Source of the DNA: Sphaerochaetaceae bacterium
GTDB taxonomy: Bacteria; Spirochaetota; Spirochaetia; Sphaerochaetales; Sphaerochaetaceae
Direction of reading: 5' to 3'
Assembly (NCBI GenBank): GCA_028700425.1
Contig: JAQVSP010000003.1
Coordinates: 1-51,065, forward strand
Length of the DNA: 51,065 bases
A program made the position numbers and the translations under genes. Positions 23,343 through 29,763 of the stretch are shown piece by piece (the first letter of the stretch is position 1; each line of letters begins with the position of its first letter). Below the pieces are notes generated by a model. The model ran no database searches. It saw only the letters and a list, made by a program, of their open reading frames with translations, and had not been told where the DNA came from.

Positions 23343-23362
23343 TAGGTTTTTGTTTTATGATA

Positions 23363-23371
23363 TGCTATAAT
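23363..23371 (+). promoter_or_regulatory. Extended -10 promoter of the aroK operon
   Basis: TGC-TATAAT (23363-23371), a perfect extended -10. The leader is about 12 bases and contains GAGGTG just before ATG 23390. It lies back-to-back with the dgt promoter, the -10 boxes being 26 bases apart. Confidence 0.6.
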
Positions 23372-23389
23372 GCTTCCTCTGAGGTGATT

Positions 23390-23878
23390 ATGATAATTCT
23401 TTGCGGCCTTAAGGGCTGCGGAAAAACAACATTAGGATCTGCTGCAGCATCGCATTTAGGCTTGAGCTTCATCGACCTGGATGCCCTTCTTGGGCAGAAT
23501 CCCAGGGATCTCTACAGACAGAGCCCTCAGCTTTTTGCCCAGGCCGAATATAAGGCCCTTTTGTCCATTGACCTAGAAAGGGATGGAATGCTCGCCCTTG
23601 GCGGCGGGACCCTGGAAAACGATAGCTGCAGGACCTATCTCAAGGGCCGAAAGACGATTTACCTGATGCAGGATGAGGACGTGCTTTTTGAGAGAATGAG
23701 AAGCACAGGCTGGCCAGCCTGGCTTGAGGGTGAAGCGGACAAGAGGCTTGCCTACCACAAGGTCTATGAAAAAAGAAACAAGACCTGTTTATCTTTTTGC
23801 CAGTATAGGCTAAAATTGAACGATTGCACGGATAGGGACCTTCAAGGCCTTGTCCGCTTGATTGGAGGAATCATTTGA
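23390..23878 (+). CDS. aroK: Shikimate kinase
   Basis: A 162-residue P-loop kinase that phosphorylates shikimate at the 3-OH. Walker A is GLKGCGKTTLG near residues 7-17 and the shikimate-binding FIDLDALL follows at about 31-38; LALGGGTLEND is the GGG motif. The lid segment reads RSTGWPAWLEG instead of the common R..RPLL, as in some short anaerobe-type shikimate kinases. The start is ATG 23390 with GAGGTG upstream. The stop overlaps the aroC TTG start, so the two are coupled. Confidence 0.88.
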   Translation: MIILCGLKGCGKTTLGSAAASHLGLSFIDLDALLGQNPRDLYRQSPQLFAQAEYKALLSIDLERDGMLALGGGTLENDSCRTYLKGRKTIYLMQDEDVLFERMRSTGWPAWLEGEADKRLAYHKVYEKRNKTCLSFCQYRLKLNDCTDRDLQGLVRLIGGII

Positions 23879-24816
23879 GCTCTACCTTTGGAACAATCTG
23901 CCGCCTTACTACCTTTGGTGAATCCCACGGGCCCTGCATTGGCATGGTGCTTGATGGGCTGGAAAGCGGGCTGGAAGTGGACCTGAGCTTTATTAGGAGC
24001 CTGCTAGCCAGACGAAGGCCCTCTCATAGCTTCGAGACCTCAAGAGTCGAGGCAGACGAGCTGCACATAGAAAGCGGAATCAAGGATGGCAGGACCACTG
24101 GAGATCCTCTTTGCATGCTCATCGAGAACAAGGCTCATGATGATAAGTCCTGCATAAAGGGCTTCTATCGCCCGGGCCACGGGGACTATGTCTACAGCCA
24201 GCGCTTTGAGAACGCCAACCTTCTAGGAGGCGGCCGCTACAGCGGGCGAGAGACAGCAGCTAGGGTGGCTGCGGGAGCCATAGCCATGCTGGCACTGAAA
24301 AAGAAGGGCATTGAGCTATCCTCAGCCCTTGTCCAGGCCGGCCTTGAGACAGATCCAGAGCGCTTTGAGACAGCGATAGACAATGCCAGATGCAACAAGG
24401 ACTCAATTGGAGGCATCATTCTCCTTAGGGCCAGCGGACTGCCCATAGGACTGGGGGAGCCGATCTTCGACAAGGCCGAGGCTCTTCTCTCCCATGCCAT
24501 AATGAGCATAGGATCGGTGAAGGCCATAAGCTTTGGAGACCTGGACCTGTCCAGCGCTCTGTCAAACAACCAGAAAGCCTCCGGTGGAATGGTGGCCGGG
24601 CTCACTGATGGAACCGAGCTGCTGGCAAGAGTCACCTTCAAGCCCACTCCCTCCATAGCAGCTGAGCAGAATATCCTTTTTCAGGATGGGACTGTCCAGA
24701 GCATGAGCCTTGAAGGACGCTTTGATGCCTTTCTTGGCTACAGGATAGGCTGCGTGATCGAGGCCATGGCAGCCTTGAGCCTGCTGGATATGTGGTACAT
24801 GCGCTATGGCAGATAA
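23875..24816 (+). CDS. aroC: Chorismate synthase
   Basis: A 313-residue FMN-dependent enzyme converting EPSP to chorismate. FGTICRLTTFGESHGPCIGMVLDG holds the first catalytic His; GFYRPGHGDYVY the second; GGGRYSGRETAARVAAGAIA is the FMN/substrate signature; FDAFLGYRIGCVIEAMAAL is the C-terminal motif, with Phe in place of the usual His of RHDP. About 40-50 residues shorter than most AroC, apparently from internal loop loss. The start is TTG 23875, overlapping the aroK stop (TTGA), with GGAGG 6-8 bases upstream. The 3' end overlaps the XPB gene by 11 bases. Confidence 0.92.
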   Translation: MSSTFGTICRLTTFGESHGPCIGMVLDGLESGLEVDLSFIRSLLARRRPSHSFETSRVEADELHIESGIKDGRTTGDPLCMLIENKAHDDKSCIKGFYRPGHGDYVYSQRFENANLLGGGRYSGRETAARVAAGAIAMLALKKKGIELSSALVQAGLETDPERFETAIDNARCNKDSIGGIILLRASGLPIGLGEPIFDKAEALLSHAIMSIGSVKAISFGDLDLSSALSNNQKASGGMVAGLTDGTELLARVTFKPTPSIAAEQNILFQDGTVQSMSLEGRFDAFLGYRIGCVIEAMAALSLLDMWYMRYGR

Positions 24817-26446
24817 GCCCTTGATAATCCAAAGCGACAGGTCAATGCTGCTGGATGTCCATCATCCCCTCTTTGCCGAATGCCGCAACGCAATCTCACC
24901 TTTCTCAGAGCTCATCAAGAGCCCCGAGCATGTCCACACCTATGCAGTGACATCCTTGTCGCTGTGGAATTCACTCTGCTCTGGGTCCACCCAGGCATCA
25001 ATCCTTGACACCCTGGCGAAGTACAGCGCCTATGGCTTGCCAGATTCCCTTTCCTCCTTCATAACCGATGTATGCTCCCGCTTTGGGGTCATAAAGCTCA
25101 CAGAGGAGGATGGAAGGCAGGTCCTGAGGATCCATGACAACAGGGTTGCCTTCATGATACTTGGCAAGAAGGCTGTCACAGACCTTCTTGGAGAGCGCAT
25201 AGGCACAGATTATGCCTATGAGATAAACCCCTTGGACAGGGGAAGCCTCAAGGTTCTGCTGATCAAGCTTGGCTTTCCTGTGGAGGACCTCATTCCGCTG
25301 AACCGAAGCGAGGACATTTCAATTGCCTTCAAGCCAGGCTTCAGCCTGAGGCCTTATCAGAAGAACGCAAGCGACTCGCTTCTTGGGGATGGAAGGCCTG
25401 GGCTGGGATATGGGGTCATAGTAGCTCCCTGCGGAAGCGGAAAGACAATTATCGGGCTTGACATCATAATCAGGCTTCACACCCCTACCATCATACTCTG
25501 CCCTTCCATAGTCAGCGCCCATCAATGGAGAAACGAGCTGCTGGACAAGACCGACATAAAGGAAGAGGACATTGGCGAGTTCTCCGGAGAGAGCAAGAAT
25601 CCAAGAAGCATAACGCTATGCACCTACCAGGCCTTGACCTACAGGCCTGACAAGGACGTCAGCTACTTTCCCAACATGGACCTGGTCAAGAGCCGTCCTT
25701 GGGGGCTGGTGATATACGACGAGGTCCATATGCTCCCCGCCCCTGTATTCAAGTTCACAGCAAGCCTGCAGAACCTTTATAGGGTTGGATTGACAGCAAC
25801 CTTGATAAGAGAGGACGGCCTGGAGGCCGATGTCTTCTCGCTGGTAGGGCCAAAGAGGTTTGACGAGCCCTGGATTGAGCTTCAGAACCAGGGCTTCATA
25901 GCAAGCGCCACCTGCACTGAGATACGCATTCCTCTGTCCAGCAGCCAGCTGGCTTCATACTACAGCTCAGGATCCCGTGCCAAGTTCACCATAGCAAGCT
26001 GCAATGTTGACAAGACCGCGGTGGTAAAGGAGCTACTGGAAAGGCACAAGGGCCAGCAGATCCTGATAATCGGGCAGTTCCTGGACCAGCTCAAGGAACT
26101 TTCAGAGACGCTTGGCTACAGCCTGCTTACTGGATCCACCTCAAACAAGGAGCGCGAAAGGCTGTACAGCGCCTTCAGAAACGGCGAGGAGAAGGTGCTT
26201 GTGGTATCCAAGGTTGCCAACTTCGCTGTTGACCTGCCCGATGCCTCAGTGGCCATCCAGGTATCAGGAACCTTTGGCTCCAGGCAGGAGGAAGCCCAGA
26301 GGCTTGGAAGGATCATGAGGCCAAAGGAGATTCCCTCTTCCTTCTACACCATAGTCACACGCTATTCCCCGGAGGAGGAATTCTCGGCGAACCGCCAGAA
26401 GTTCCTTGCCGAGCAAGGCTACAAATACCAGCTGGAGATACGCTGA
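24806..26446 (+). CDS. XPB/Ercc3-family superfamily 2 DNA helicase
   Basis: A 546-residue homologue of the eukaryotic TFIIH helicase XPB, in the bacterial branch known from Treponema and Actinobacteria. The N-terminal HPLFAECRNAISPFSELIKSPEHVHTYAVTSLSLWNSL is the bacterial XPB N-domain. The helicase core has Walker A APCGSGKT (about 206-213), DEVH (about 305-308), TAT in GLTATLIREDG with the XPB-specific RED motif, and GSRQEEAQRLGRIMRPK (motif VI). Expected to unwind or remodel damaged or transcribed DNA. It is translationally coupled to aroC (11-base overlap) and to the downstream partner gene (TGATG). Confidence 0.93.
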   Translation: MADKPLIIQSDRSMLLDVHHPLFAECRNAISPFSELIKSPEHVHTYAVTSLSLWNSLCSGSTQASILDTLAKYSAYGLPDSLSSFITDVCSRFGVIKLTEEDGRQVLRIHDNRVAFMILGKKAVTDLLGERIGTDYAYEINPLDRGSLKVLLIKLGFPVEDLIPLNRSEDISIAFKPGFSLRPYQKNASDSLLGDGRPGLGYGVIVAPCGSGKTIIGLDIIIRLHTPTIILCPSIVSAHQWRNELLDKTDIKEEDIGEFSGESKNPRSITLCTYQALTYRPDKDVSYFPNMDLVKSRPWGLVIYDEVHMLPAPVFKFTASLQNLYRVGLTATLIREDGLEADVFSLVGPKRFDEPWIELQNQGFIASATCTEIRIPLSSSQLASYYSSGSRAKFTIASCNVDKTAVVKELLERHKGQQILIIGQFLDQLKELSETLGYSLLTGSTSNKERERLYSAFRNGEEKVLVVSKVANFAVDLPDASVAIQVSGTFGSRQEEAQRLGRIMRPKEIPSSFYTIVTRYSPEEEFSANRQKFLAEQGYKYQLEIR

Positions 26447-28284
26447 TGCTTATCAACGACAATGAATCCTATCAGCTTTTCTGCTCACTGCTTGGACAGG
26501 CTCCAACATTCTTCGATGTCTACAAGACCTATTTTGGTTCCTTGCCAAGCCCCTTCAACAAGTCACGGATGCTTGAGGACCTTTTCATCAAGCTATCCAG
26601 CGCCTCTGTCGTGAAGTCCGTGATGGACTCAATTACGCCAGTGCAGTCAGCCATACTTACCTACATAAGGATCAACGGCAAGGTTCAGCTGAAAGCTATG
26701 CTTGCCCAGCTCTCCAGCCTAGGGCAGCAGGAGGTTGCCGCCGAGCTTGACAGCCTTCTGTCAAAGGGCCTTGTCATACAGGCCTCTCAGCTCTACGTCC
26801 TAAGCCCTGTGTTCAAGGATGAGGATCTGGAGAAGGTCATGAGCCTTCCAAGGACCGTTGACCTGCCTGAAAGGCCGCAGGTCAGGATCATCAGCAACAT
26901 GGCAATGTTTTTGTATGCAATCCTTGCATTGATCATCAACCGAAAAGCCACAGCCAATGGCGCCATAAGGTTCAAGAAGGCAGATTGCGACATATTCAGC
27001 TGCAGCAAGGAGACGCTGGAGAGCCTGGCCTCCGATGCCAGCCATCTGTTTGCTGTCTCAGGAGTCATCGATGCCAAGACAGACAATCTGAAGATAAATC
27101 CAAATATGGCAAGGGATTTCTTCAGTGCAGAGACCTATCGCATAGGCTGCGCCTTCCTTGAGCTTAAGCAATTCGGCCTTCAATACTACGAAAAGCATCT
27201 TTTCCGATCTGTATACCAGATGATATTCAGCCACCAGACAAAGGTCCCTCTTCTTAAGGCAGTGCAGAGATGCTTCATGGGCGGAGTTCCAGTCCAGACC
27301 ATCTCCACCATAATCCAGGGCCTATATCAATATGGCCTGATCGACTGGTCAGATGAGGCCATCAGCGTGAAGCTGGATACCCCAAAGGCCCCAATCCTTG
27401 ATACAGACCTGAAGGCGAACTATTTCTCCAGGCCTCCTCTTGGCTCCCTTCTTCCCTTGTTCTGCGAGCCTGTAAAGAGCGATGAGGCAACCGTGCTGGC
27501 CTTTTCCAAGCAAAGCGTGTTTGCAGCCTTTTCAGCAGGCCTTGAATCCAGCCTCATAGAGGGCGAGCTTGAATCGTCCTTCTTCCGCAGCCAGCTTGAA
27601 GCCTACACCAGGGAGCATTCCAGGGCATGCATCTATGAAGGCACTGTCCTGGTCCTTGATGCAGATGTGGCGGACTTCATCTCCCAGAGCCCGACCATTG
27701 AGCCTTACATCATAAAGCGCCTCAGCCAGAAGGTCTTCTTCATGAAAGGCTCAAGGAAGGACATGAAGGCCTGGTCGACCCAGCTCAACAAGCTTCTAGG
27801 AAGCAAGGCTGAGATACCTGTGATCACCGAGCCATCCGCTGATGCAGATACCTTTCTCTCAAGCGACTGGAATGATGACAGCCATATCATGCCAAGATCA
27901 AGCAGCATAAGCCTTGAGCCTGGGTATGAGGACAGGACCAGGGAGCTTAAGGACAGGCTATTCAAGGATGCACAGGAAATGGGCCTGCTGAATGCAGAGC
28001 TTCAGCAAGCCATCGAGGATGGCACAGTCATCCAGAAAGCTCAGTTTGCCCTTTATTCAAGAAAGCCCGAGCCTGGATGGGGCGACTACAGCGATGCCAT
28101 TCTTACCGCCCAGTCGGCAGGCCTTCCCATTGTCTATAGGGACAAGGTCCTTAAGCTTCAGCGCTGCAGGAAGCAAAGCGATGCAGTATGCGGATATGGC
28201 TACAGCGTGGTGGATGAATCAATGACCTACGTGAGCCTCTCACGCTTTGAGAAGCCCAGGATACTGCATCATCTGCACGTCTAG
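26446..28284 (+). CDS. XPB-associated protein, Helicase_C_3-like
   Basis: A 612-residue protein starting in the TGATG overlap with the XPB gene. In Actinobacteria and spirochaetes XPB is commonly adjacent to a protein with an XPB/Ssl2-like helicase-associated domain. Here N-terminal winged-helix stretches are visible (SITPVQSAILTYIRINGKVQLKAMLAQLS; about 60-120), then a long helical middle, and a C-terminal part with ACIYEGTVLVLDADVADFISQSP...KKLSQKVF-type strands that fits the Helicase_C_3 pattern. No nuclease motif like archaeal Bax1 is recognised. Probably acts as a DNA-binding partner of XPB; this is inference from neighbourhood and weak similarity. The stop shares CTAG with aroDE. Confidence 0.7.
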   Translation: MLINDNESYQLFCSLLGQAPTFFDVYKTYFGSLPSPFNKSRMLEDLFIKLSSASVVKSVMDSITPVQSAILTYIRINGKVQLKAMLAQLSSLGQQEVAAELDSLLSKGLVIQASQLYVLSPVFKDEDLEKVMSLPRTVDLPERPQVRIISNMAMFLYAILALIINRKATANGAIRFKKADCDIFSCSKETLESLASDASHLFAVSGVIDAKTDNLKINPNMARDFFSAETYRIGCAFLELKQFGLQYYEKHLFRSVYQMIFSHQTKVPLLKAVQRCFMGGVPVQTISTIIQGLYQYGLIDWSDEAISVKLDTPKAPILDTDLKANYFSRPPLGSLLPLFCEPVKSDEATVLAFSKQSVFAAFSAGLESSLIEGELESSFFRSQLEAYTREHSRACIYEGTVLVLDADVADFISQSPTIEPYIIKRLSQKVFFMKGSRKDMKAWSTQLNKLLGSKAEIPVITEPSADADTFLSSDWNDDSHIMPRSSSISLEPGYEDRTRELKDRLFKDAQEMGLLNAELQQAIEDGTVIQKAQFALYSRKPEPGWGDYSDAILTAQSAGLPIVYRDKVLKLQRCRKQSDAVCGYGYSVVDESMTYVSLSRFEKPRILHHLHV

Positions 28285-29726
28285 AATGTTATGCTGCAGC
28301 TTGGCGGCAGGTGGTAGCCGGTGAAGAACTCAAACTGAAGCTTGCCCTGCTCCAAAAGCATGTCCTTGCCGAACATCAAGCGGCATCCTGCCTTGCTTGC
28401 ACGGCTGAGGAACTTTGTCATGCCAGGCTTGTAGATCAGCTCGCAAACTCTCTCAGACCCTGTGAACCCGAGCTTGGGAGCTGGATCCTTGCCGTCATCT
28501 GGAGCCATTCCAACAGGAGTGGCCTGGACAATCAGATCGGCTTTCCCAGTATATTTTCCTGCATTATCAAGGCTGTCATAGGCGCTCATGGTCTCGGCTG
28601 CGAGAACCTTGGCCCTCTCGGGGCTGCGGTTTAGGATGGTGACCTGGCAGCTGTAGGTCTTTAAGGCCCACACAACAGCTCTAGCAGCTCCACCTGCCCC
28701 TACAACGATGGCAGTCTTGATCTTCTTGTCGATCAGGTCCTTCTCCAATGGGGTGAGAAAGCCATAGTAGTCTGTGTTGTAGCCTTTCCATAAGCCTGGC
28801 TCCCTTATGACGGTGTTGCAGGAGCCGATCCTGATGACTTCCCTGCTTGTCCTGCCCAAAAATGGGATCACATCCCTCTTGAAGGGGATTGTCACTGAGA
28901 ATCCGTTTATCTTCAGCTGTTCAGCCAGGCGGAAGAACGCTCTGATGCTTTCTGCCTGGAAAGGAACATATATTGCATTGAAGTGTATGGCGTGGAATCC
29001 TGGATTATGGATCATTGGGCTCACAGTCTGCATGACAGGATTCCCGACGACCCCATATATCCTGGTCTGTGCATTGACTCTGTCAGCATGGTACAGCTCG
29101 CACAGATCTCTTGGGCTTAGCATGCCTGGAGCGGCTTCCTCGTCGCTGCAATAGGTCAGTATGGATCCAAGCTTCTTGTAGAGGACTCTGGTCGGAACTC
29201 CAAAATCGCCCATTCCGACAATGATCTTCCTTGGGATGTTGGCAAGCTGTGTCTGGACTGAGAACAAGGTCATCAGGTCCTCTGTCTTCTGAGGCATGAC
29301 AGCTAGCTTTGGTATGTCCCCGTCCTTGGCAAGCTTGGTTATGAGGCTGAATATGTCCACAGGGATTCCAGTGAAATCATGATGGCTTCTGATTATCTGG
29401 ACGCCCTTTGCCCTGACCGAGTCAAGAAAGGCCTTTCGCCTTACATCATCCTCTATGTCCAGATATGCAAATCCACCTTCAAGAGCCTGCTCAAGATACT
29501 CGATGCGCTGCTTTTCGCTGAGGGTGCACTTGCCGCCCTCGGAGGTTCGCCTGAAAGTAAGGATTACTGGAAGGTCCACCTGGCTGGGAAACAGCTTAAC
29601 ATCAGAGAGCTCTGAAGCCTTAAGGTAATCCATCCGAAGCTCAGCTGCATTTATGTAGGGACGGTTTTTCCAGAACTGATCAAGATCTTCCTTGATGGTC
29701 TTTCCGGTCATGGTCAAGCAAAGCAT
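28281..29726 (-). CDS. aroDE: Bifunctional 3-dehydroquinate dehydratase / shikimate dehydrogenase
   Basis: A 481-residue fusion carrying steps 3 and 4 of the shikimate pathway. The N-terminal type I AroD (about 1-215) has AAELRMDYL (ExRxD), SHHDF with the catalytic His, and PKLAVMPQ with the Schiff-base Lys. The C-terminal AroE (about 220-481) has VVGNPVMQTVSPMIHN, SVTIPFKRD with the catalytic Lys, NTDYYGFL, and NADP-binding VVGAGGAARAVVWAL. Such fusions are known in plants, Chlamydia and some spirochaetes. ATG 29726 with GGAGG upstream is preferred over GTG 29732. With aroK and aroC on the facing operon, four shikimate activities cluster here. Confidence 0.95.
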   Translation of the reverse strand: MLCLTMTGKTIKEDLDQFWKNRPYINAAELRMDYLKASELSDVKLFPSQVDLPVILTFRRTSEGGKCTLSEKQRIEYLEQALEGGFAYLDIEDDVRRKAFLDSVRAKGVQIIRSHHDFTGIPVDIFSLITKLAKDGDIPKLAVMPQKTEDLMTLFSVQTQLANIPRKIIVGMGDFGVPTRVLYKKLGSILTYCSDEEAAPGMLSPRDLCELYHADRVNAQTRIYGVVGNPVMQTVSPMIHNPGFHAIHFNAIYVPFQAESIRAFFRLAEQLKINGFSVTIPFKRDVIPFLGRTSREVIRIGSCNTVIREPGLWKGYNTDYYGFLTPLEKDLIDKKIKTAIVVGAGGAARAVVWALKTYSCQVTILNRSPERAKVLAAETMSAYDSLDNAGKYTGKADLIVQATPVGMAPDDGKDPAPKLGFTGSERVCELIYKPGMTKFLSRASKAGCRLMFGKDMLLEQGKLQFEFFTGYHLPPSCSITF

Positions 29727-29763
29727 GCACACCCTCCATATCCTTGTAAGTCAAAGCGCCTTT

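Follow-up and report, generated by a model that had tools for sequence, protein, structure and literature searches.

A p52-like partner of prokaryotic XPB helicases

The stretch of DNA analysed here, which we will call the window (51,065 nt of a Sphaerochaetaceae bacterium; assembly GCA_028700425.1, contig JAQVSP010000003.1, positions 1 to 51,065, forward strand), encodes a DNA helicase of the XPB/ERCC3 type and, overlapping its end, a second protein that we refer to as the partner. Very probably, the partner is the prokaryotic equivalent of p52/Tfb2, the subunit by which XPB is held in TFIIH, a human complex of transcription and DNA repair. The central clutch domain of the partner would most likely pair with the N-terminal domain (NTD) of XPB and thereby anchor the helicase, which the partner would also regulate. 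The two genes are coupled and co-occur in spirochaetes and actinobacteria, the clutch is homologous to the XPB NTD, the predicted model of the partner matches p52-type chains, and many relatives of the partner end in a WYL domain. Judged from sequence, bacteria and some archaea appear to possess a two-part TFIIH-type core.

The helicase matched the curated bacterial XPB family (NF045503, an equivalog) over its whole length including the NTD, with 731 bits against a cut-off of 610 (residues 5-543). It also matched PF13625 (E-value 2.1e-28, residues 6-132), PF16203 (4e-40) and PF04851 (1.1e-17), as well as the XPB chain of TFIIH (8ebt_A, 1.3e-76).

Co-occurrence of XPB and the partner

XPB and the partner were searched for in the genome of the window and in those of 60 relatives (61 in all), with XPB called by the NF045503 cut-off and the partner by profile A2. 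Both were present in 50 genomes and neither in 11; no genome contained XPB only or the partner only. As 45 of the partners counted later had themselves gone into the profile, this chiefly tests absence, and presence was independently tested mainly in the five XPB-bearing genomes outside A2 (G031, G047, G048, G052 and G059). One of 14 well-known control genomes exceeded the XPB cut-off. The partner was located directly beside XPB in 45 of the 49 XPB-bearing relatives, i.e. in all 29 of the same family and in 16 of 20 from other families of the class. In the remaining four (G046, G047, G057 and G059) it was found elsewhere in the genome or on a different contig; like Treponema vincentii, these genomes have retained a partner unlinked to XPB. 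When an open reading frame was called directly downstream of XPB, it overlapped XPB in 29/42 relatives and lay at most 50 bases from its end in 39/42, so that the coupling of XPB to its downstream gene exceeds chance.

A similar picture emerged from 118 actinobacterial genomes of the class to which a Streptomyces genome belongs. With the partner called at E<=1e-25 by profile A4, both genes were present in 96 genomes, the partner only in two, XPB only in none and neither in 20; G141 was counted as XPB-bearing, its XPB being covered by pieces on two contigs. The partner gene preceded XPB in all 73 tabulated same-strand pairs, 29 of which were within 300 bases (the table holds 75 partner and 73 XPB places and excludes genes on different contigs or on opposite strands, G105 and G181). 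More broadly, for 62 of 80 named XPB loci from spirochaetes, actinobacteria and other phyla, the stored flank contained a match to the partner. The co-occurrence across bacteria on which the initial annotation had staked its proposal of an XPB cofactor is thus clearly seen.

In archaea, five of 147 genomes of the phylum of Methanolliviera carry a partner (8.4e-22 to 3.2e-38), which in three of the five is divergent from an adjacent XPB with 35-77 bases in between. The partner evolves fast: 44 partners shared 13-19% identity with the window copy, compared with 46-55% for 17 XPBs. Because of this, a search for related loci with the window partner alone retrieved none.

In G063 and G074 (Brevibacillus), four small open frames of 90-102 amino acids (e.g. 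G074:C38:30746-30970) correspond solely to the WYL-like C-terminal portion of the partner profile. A protein of 1036-1058 amino acids comes after XPB at three loci from Hydrogenedentes (L125 6662-9802, L126 2111-5215, L143 3337-6510). Of these, L125 and L143 were scanned; their proteins resemble AddB and contain a PDDEXK_1 nuclease domain, which points to a possible pairing of XPB and nuclease genes.

Relation of the partner to p52/Tfb2 and to XPB

When profile A2 was compared with all PDB sequences, p52/Tfb2 came first (5.9e-9 to 5.9e-6), followed by XPB (from 1.4e-3) and by unrelated proteins (from 0.009). The profile of the clutch only (A8) likewise found Tfb2 (1.4e-8) and p52 (5.6e-5) before XPB (0.0025), i.e. 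in the window's group the clutch is nearer p52 than XPB, and a control profile of the XPB NTD found XPB (1.2e-19) without reaching p52 at E<=1. Since the clutch profile finds p52/Tfb2 first and the NTD profile finds no p52, the partner clutch and the XPB NTD each seem to correspond to the domain of the same name in eukaryotes. Direct comparison of the two bacterial domains by hhalign (98.0%, E 1.9e-13) shows that they are clearly homologous. PF13625, the family matched by the XPB NTD, was also recognised in 32/45 partners (best 7.6e-12), and the Tfb2 family in one of the 45 (0.0075). As read from the alignment, the place of Tfb2 E342 is acidic in 29/45 and that of R380 basic in 41/45 spirochaete partners. 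An alignment of fused and single chains (A3) was dropped because single partners placed their clutch on the XPB NTD.

An unrooted tree was built from 86 clutch-type domains, including 41 XPB NTDs and two eukaryotic p52 rows. All 41 XPB NTDs fell on one side of a branch supported at 100/99 with no partner clutch among them, and the two p52 rows grouped with 15 spirochaete partner clutches (98/82). The domain is short, the branches are long and, under midpoint rooting, the partner clutches from archaea and actinobacteria, along with some others, fall on the side of XPB; for these reasons, and because the tree is unrooted, it does not fix the age and direction of the duplication.

The nearest approach to the Tfb2 family (PF03849) was seen in an archaeal partner (L251, 33.6 bits against a cut-off of 34.5). 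Three archaeal partners (L248, L250 and L251) score for both PF13625 and Tfb2, and two of the three also for WYL, as if they were intermediate between the bacterial partner and p52.

Predicted structure and C-terminal domain

The AlphaFold2 model of the window partner (pLDDT, the predicted local distance difference test score, 76.7; pTM, the predicted template modelling score, 0.58) was searched against the PDB with Foldseek. All 16 matches at E<=1e-3 were chains of TFIIH-containing entries, aligned over 330-515 columns; 8ebt_D, 7o4i_2 and 7zs9_2 are named p52/Tfb2, and the other 13 were taken as such from entry and length. Likewise, the model of an actinobacterial fusion (L175, in which the partner of a Cryobacterium continues into XPB by read-through) matched 8ebt_D (2.7e-9 over 525 columns) and 9pd3_D (4.1e-10), in addition to XPB, the query range of these matches not being given. 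VIA-align returned ArsR/MarR-type folds for the window model (e.g. 2zkz_C, Z 10.1, root-mean-square deviation 2.2, 79 aligned residues, model 52-133), and a MarR_2 match was found near the N terminus (0.0085). For the fused model, the VIA-align rows were XPB and other helicases. We do not regard the absence of p52 from the VIA-align rows of either model as excluding p52.

Two statements of the initial annotation about the partner, that it has winged-helix-like stretches near its N terminus and that it carries no nuclease motif, agree with these data: the winged-helix folds just described lie near the N terminus, and no nuclease family was found in Pfam or NCBIfam scans, which a distant domain could escape. 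As for a plausible interface with XPB, on which the same proposal depended, the clutch homology speaks in favour of it and the pTM of the fused model (see below) leaves the docking undecided.

The C-terminal domain of the window partner is probably p8-like by its predicted fold. Foldseek aligned the model with chains taken to be p8/Tfb5 (7nvr_5, 5oqj_5, 3dom_B and 1ydl) at a probability of 0.97-0.99 and an E-value of about 1, the place of the match on the partner being deduced, as the query range is not given. In relatives, WYL (PF13280, best 2.8e-11) was recognised in 13 of 19 C-terminal segments (17 actinobacterial, two other), in two of three archaeal partners scanned and in one Hydrogenedentes partner. 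A profile of these segments found PafBC as its nearest match (1.6e-7). With the spirochaete C-terminal profile, the resemblance was weak: a Pif1, for which a WYL domain is described in its paper, was matched at no better than E 0.1. According to the respective papers, the WYL domains of PafBC bind single-stranded DNA and trigger the DNA damage response (PMC11804915), and that of Pif1 binds single-stranded DNA (PMC9964779).

Proposed mechanism

In TFIIH, as stated in parts of two papers, the clutch of p52 and the NTD of XPB make up a pseudo-symmetric dimer, p8 contacts the second RecA domain, and the ATPase is stimulated by p52 as well as by p8 (PMC6422496, PMC9557730). By homology, the bacterial partner would be expected to anchor XPB by its clutch and to regulate it by its C-terminal domain. 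The central domain (amino acids 306-462) duplicates the XPB NTD; most likely, it would bind the NTD physically as a pseudo-symmetric clutch and fix the helicase to the partner. The N-terminal winged-helix arm would serve to contact DNA or a further factor, or to recruit it. The C-terminal domain, probably p8-like in its predicted fold here and WYL in relatives, would lie near the second RecA domain and regulate the ATPase or translocase, possibly by stimulating XPB and perhaps via binding, and hence sensing, of single-stranded DNA; a role of the pair in repair might be supposed. The shikimate operon in which the genes reside (see below) is local context in one family and stands outside the mechanism.

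Gene neighbourhood

The features of the locus are listed in Table 1.

Table 1. Genes and protein domains around XPB in the window (aa, amino acids)
Feature	Position	Strand	Basis
aroK, shikimate kinase (context only)	23357..23878	+	PF01202 5e-16
aroC, chorismate synthase (context only)	23875..24816	+	PF01264 3.3e-83
XPB/ERCC3-type DNA helicase, 546 aa, NTD and both RecA domains	24806..26446	+	NF045503, Pfam, TFIIH XPB chain
XPB N-terminal clutch-type domain, aa 6-132	about 24821-25201	+	PF13625 2.1e-28
p52/Tfb2-like XPB partner (very probable), 612 aa	26446..28284	+	profile against PDB sequences, Foldseek of AlphaFold2 model, co-occurrence with XPB
Partner N-terminal helical arm, aa 1-305, winged helix about aa 48-133	26446..27360	+	MarR_2 0.0085; winged-helix folds
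Partner clutch (HubA-like) domain, aa 306-462	27361..27831	+	homology to XPB NTD and p52 clutch (profiles, hhalign, tree)
Partner C-terminal domain, about aa 494-612, probably p8-like fold	27925..28281	+	Foldseek; place inferred
aroDE, bifunctional dehydroquinase/shikimate dehydrogenase, convergent (context only)	28281..29732	-	PF01487 1.3e-42, PF08501 1.3e-19

Serial overlaps from aroK to the partner, with aroDE facing them across a common stop, were the basis on which XPB had initially been placed in a shikimate operon, and each of these junctions can be read from the sequence. The TTG start of aroC at 23875 overlaps the aroK stop TGA at 23876-23878 (TTGA); the ATG of XPB at 24806 and the aroC stop TAA, which ends at 24816, give an overlap of 11 bases; and the XPB stop TGA (26444-26446) runs into the partner ATG (26446-26448) as TGATG. 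The partner stop TAG (28282-28284) and that of aroDE (the complement of 28281-28283) are parts of a common CTAG palindrome at 28281-28284. The aroC gene is short (313 amino acids) and its family match is split in two stretches, perhaps due to an internal deletion. Elsewhere in the genome, on a different contig from XPB, a 714-amino-acid open frame carries an XPD/DinG-type Helicase_C_2 domain (1.1e-43; G000:C178:30256-30738).

The shikimate link itself, regarded by the initial annotation as the point of interest, did not prove general. Within the family, aroC was found upstream of XPB in 22/29 members (26 of the 29 have at least 1300 bases upstream), compared with 0/20 other members of the class; a convergent aroDE was present in 22/29 and 11/20, respectively. 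Given that the partner lies beside XPB in 45/49 of the same relatives, the aro neighbourhood is a lineage trait, whereas the XPB-partner pair is the conserved unit.

Alternative explanations

Several results weigh against the assignment of the partner as a p52 counterpart. PF03849 did not exceed its cut-off of 34.5 bits in any of the 61 genomes and had no match at all in that of the window; its top 20 matches at E<=1 in these genomes were distributed among the partner (10), XPB (3) and other proteins (7). This reverse search is weak and unspecific, as sub-cut-off matches also appeared in 6/14 control genomes. The N-terminal half of the partner has no similarity to p52 by sequence. The actinobacterial profile A4 finds XPB (1.1e-5) before Tfb2 (0.013), and the place of Tfb2 E342 is glutamine in 20/20 of the actinobacterial set. 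In the structural comparisons, the Foldseek template modelling scores by query were low (0.16-0.25), winged-helix regulators and no p52 chain were among the 50 VIA-align matches listed, and the fused model, with a pTM of 0.50, does not fix the docking. No match to Ssl1/p44, which together with p34 and p62 accompanies p52 in the TFIIH core, was found in the window's own genome (94% complete). Finally, 18 of the 80 named XPB loci had no partner match in the stored flank. Of the corresponding genomes that were searched beyond the flank, that of Treponema vincentii encodes a full-length partner elsewhere (5.7e-118), and two of Brevibacillus and the metagenome-assembled genomes (MAGs) of a Ktedonobacteria and a Hydrogenedentes member encode candidate clutch-bearing proteins of 602-837 amino acids elsewhere. 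In the genomes of Brachyspira pilosicoli, one cyanobacterial MAG and Methanolliviera, XPB was present and no partner was found. Because PF03849 remains below its cut-off, the arm is unlike p52 in sequence, the actinobacterial profile is nearer XPB, the template modelling scores are low and no p44 was found in the window's own genome, we describe the partner as p52-like without assigning it to PF03849.

Some of these points would suit a local origin, in which the partner clutch is a duplicate of the neighbouring XPB NTD fused to winged helices, a bacterial invention resembling p52 by convergence. The two domains are clearly homologous, profile A4 is nearer XPB, the arm does not resemble p52 in sequence, and the tree leaves the direction and age of the duplication unfixed. 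Nevertheless, the XPB NTDs and the partner clutches do not intermingle and both p52 rows stand among the latter, the preference of the clutch profile for p52/Tfb2 is not mirrored by the NTD profile, and two models from distant families match p52-type chains of TFIIH over about 500 columns, which makes convergence unlikely. The winged helix and the WYL-like C terminus would also fit a DNA-damage regulator or transcription factor acting at promoters, with the XPB-like domain being incidental, especially as WYL in the relatives is nearest to PafBC, a DNA-damage activator described as sensing single-stranded DNA (PMC11804915). Instead, a helicase subunit is indicated by the clutch and by a co-occurrence with XPB that is near-perfect and holds even for unlinked genes; moreover, WYL domains occur on helicases too, for example on Pif1 as described in part of its paper (PMC9964779). 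We consider such a regulator quite unlikely.

The remaining two explanations concern the immediate context of XPB. Coupling of XPB and its partner to aromatic biosynthesis through one mRNA, as the initial annotation read the locus, is suggested by the gene overlaps in the window and by the frequent aroC and aroDE neighbours within the family. It is very improbable in view of the other class members, 16 of the 20 of which keep the partner beside XPB with aroC never upstream, and of the inverse, partner-first order in actinobacteria. That the partner might be a Bax1-type nuclease subunit is suggested by its dedicated gene beside a prokaryotic XPB, an arrangement also found for archaeal Bax1. This can hardly be upheld, for the scans detected no nuclease family and there was no Bax1 chain among the matches of profile A2 to PDB sequences at E<=1. 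The Bax1, nuclease and purely shikimate-based readings were accordingly rejected. As to the initial suggestion of a distinct type of XPB cofactor, the co-occurrence supports a genuine XPB partner, but one that is p52-like rather than wholly distinct; the initial annotation had overlooked that the XPB NTD recurs as the central domain of the partner, as it does in p52 of TFIIH.

Relation to known systems

The p52-like partner follows p52/Tfb2 (GTF2H4) in the order of its parts, i.e. a winged-helix arm, a clutch homologous to the XPB NTD and a small C-terminal domain, and in being found only together with XPB among the 61 genomes. It differs from p52/Tfb2 in its prokaryotic occurrence, the location of its gene mostly beside XPB, its scores below the Tfb2 Pfam cut-off, the WYL C terminus of many relatives, the lack of an Ssl1/p44 match in its own genome and the size of its relatives (about 520-830 amino acids versus 462-513). 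The actinobacterial PF13625 protein next to XPB, which we take to be of the Rv0862c type, belongs to the same family over most of its length (hhalign 98.2%, E 5e-14, 597 columns); unlike in the window partner, its gene is upstream of XPB, its clutch profile is nearer XPB and WYL is recognised. Archaeal Bax1 is similar in being a dedicated partner of a prokaryotic XPB encoded beside it. According to part of one paper, it is a nuclease and contacts XPB at the thumb and HD2 (PMC13024598), whereas the partner has no detected nuclease family and would pair with the XPB NTD. What links the partner family to the WYL proteins PafBC, DriD and Pif1 is a C-terminal WYL domain, carried by many of the actinobacterial partners scanned, by two of the three from archaea and by one from Hydrogenedentes. 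PafBC is a transcription factor and Pif1 a superfamily 1 helicase; no clutch domain was seen in either, though no aimed search was made.

Implications

A paper from 2012 states, in the section concerned, that p52 homologues were not found in bacteria (PMC3353954), and one from 2020 describes, likewise in part of its text, archaea as lacking a TFIIH-like factor (PMC7672443). Among the papers listed by searches of the open literature, which did not extend to bioRxiv or subscription text, none was seen to describe p52 from bacteria or archaea or such an XPB partner. PF13625 already unites the clutch and the XPB NTD in Pfam, so the domain is known; its role as a p52-like subunit is apparently unstated in the surveyed literature. 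It is conceivable, albeit doubtful, that XPB and a p52-like subunit form an ancient module common to bacteria, some archaea and eukaryotes; its probability is reduced by the tree being unrooted.

With a p52-like partner accompanying XPB in spirochaetes and actinobacteria, as well as in some other phyla and some archaea, what bacterial XPB does would become directly testable. The bacterial pair would also serve as a two-protein model for the clutch of XPB and p52, in which, according to part of one paper, disease mutations of human XPB are located (PMC6422496). Finally, such a partner in prokaryotes would bear on the origin of TFIIH.

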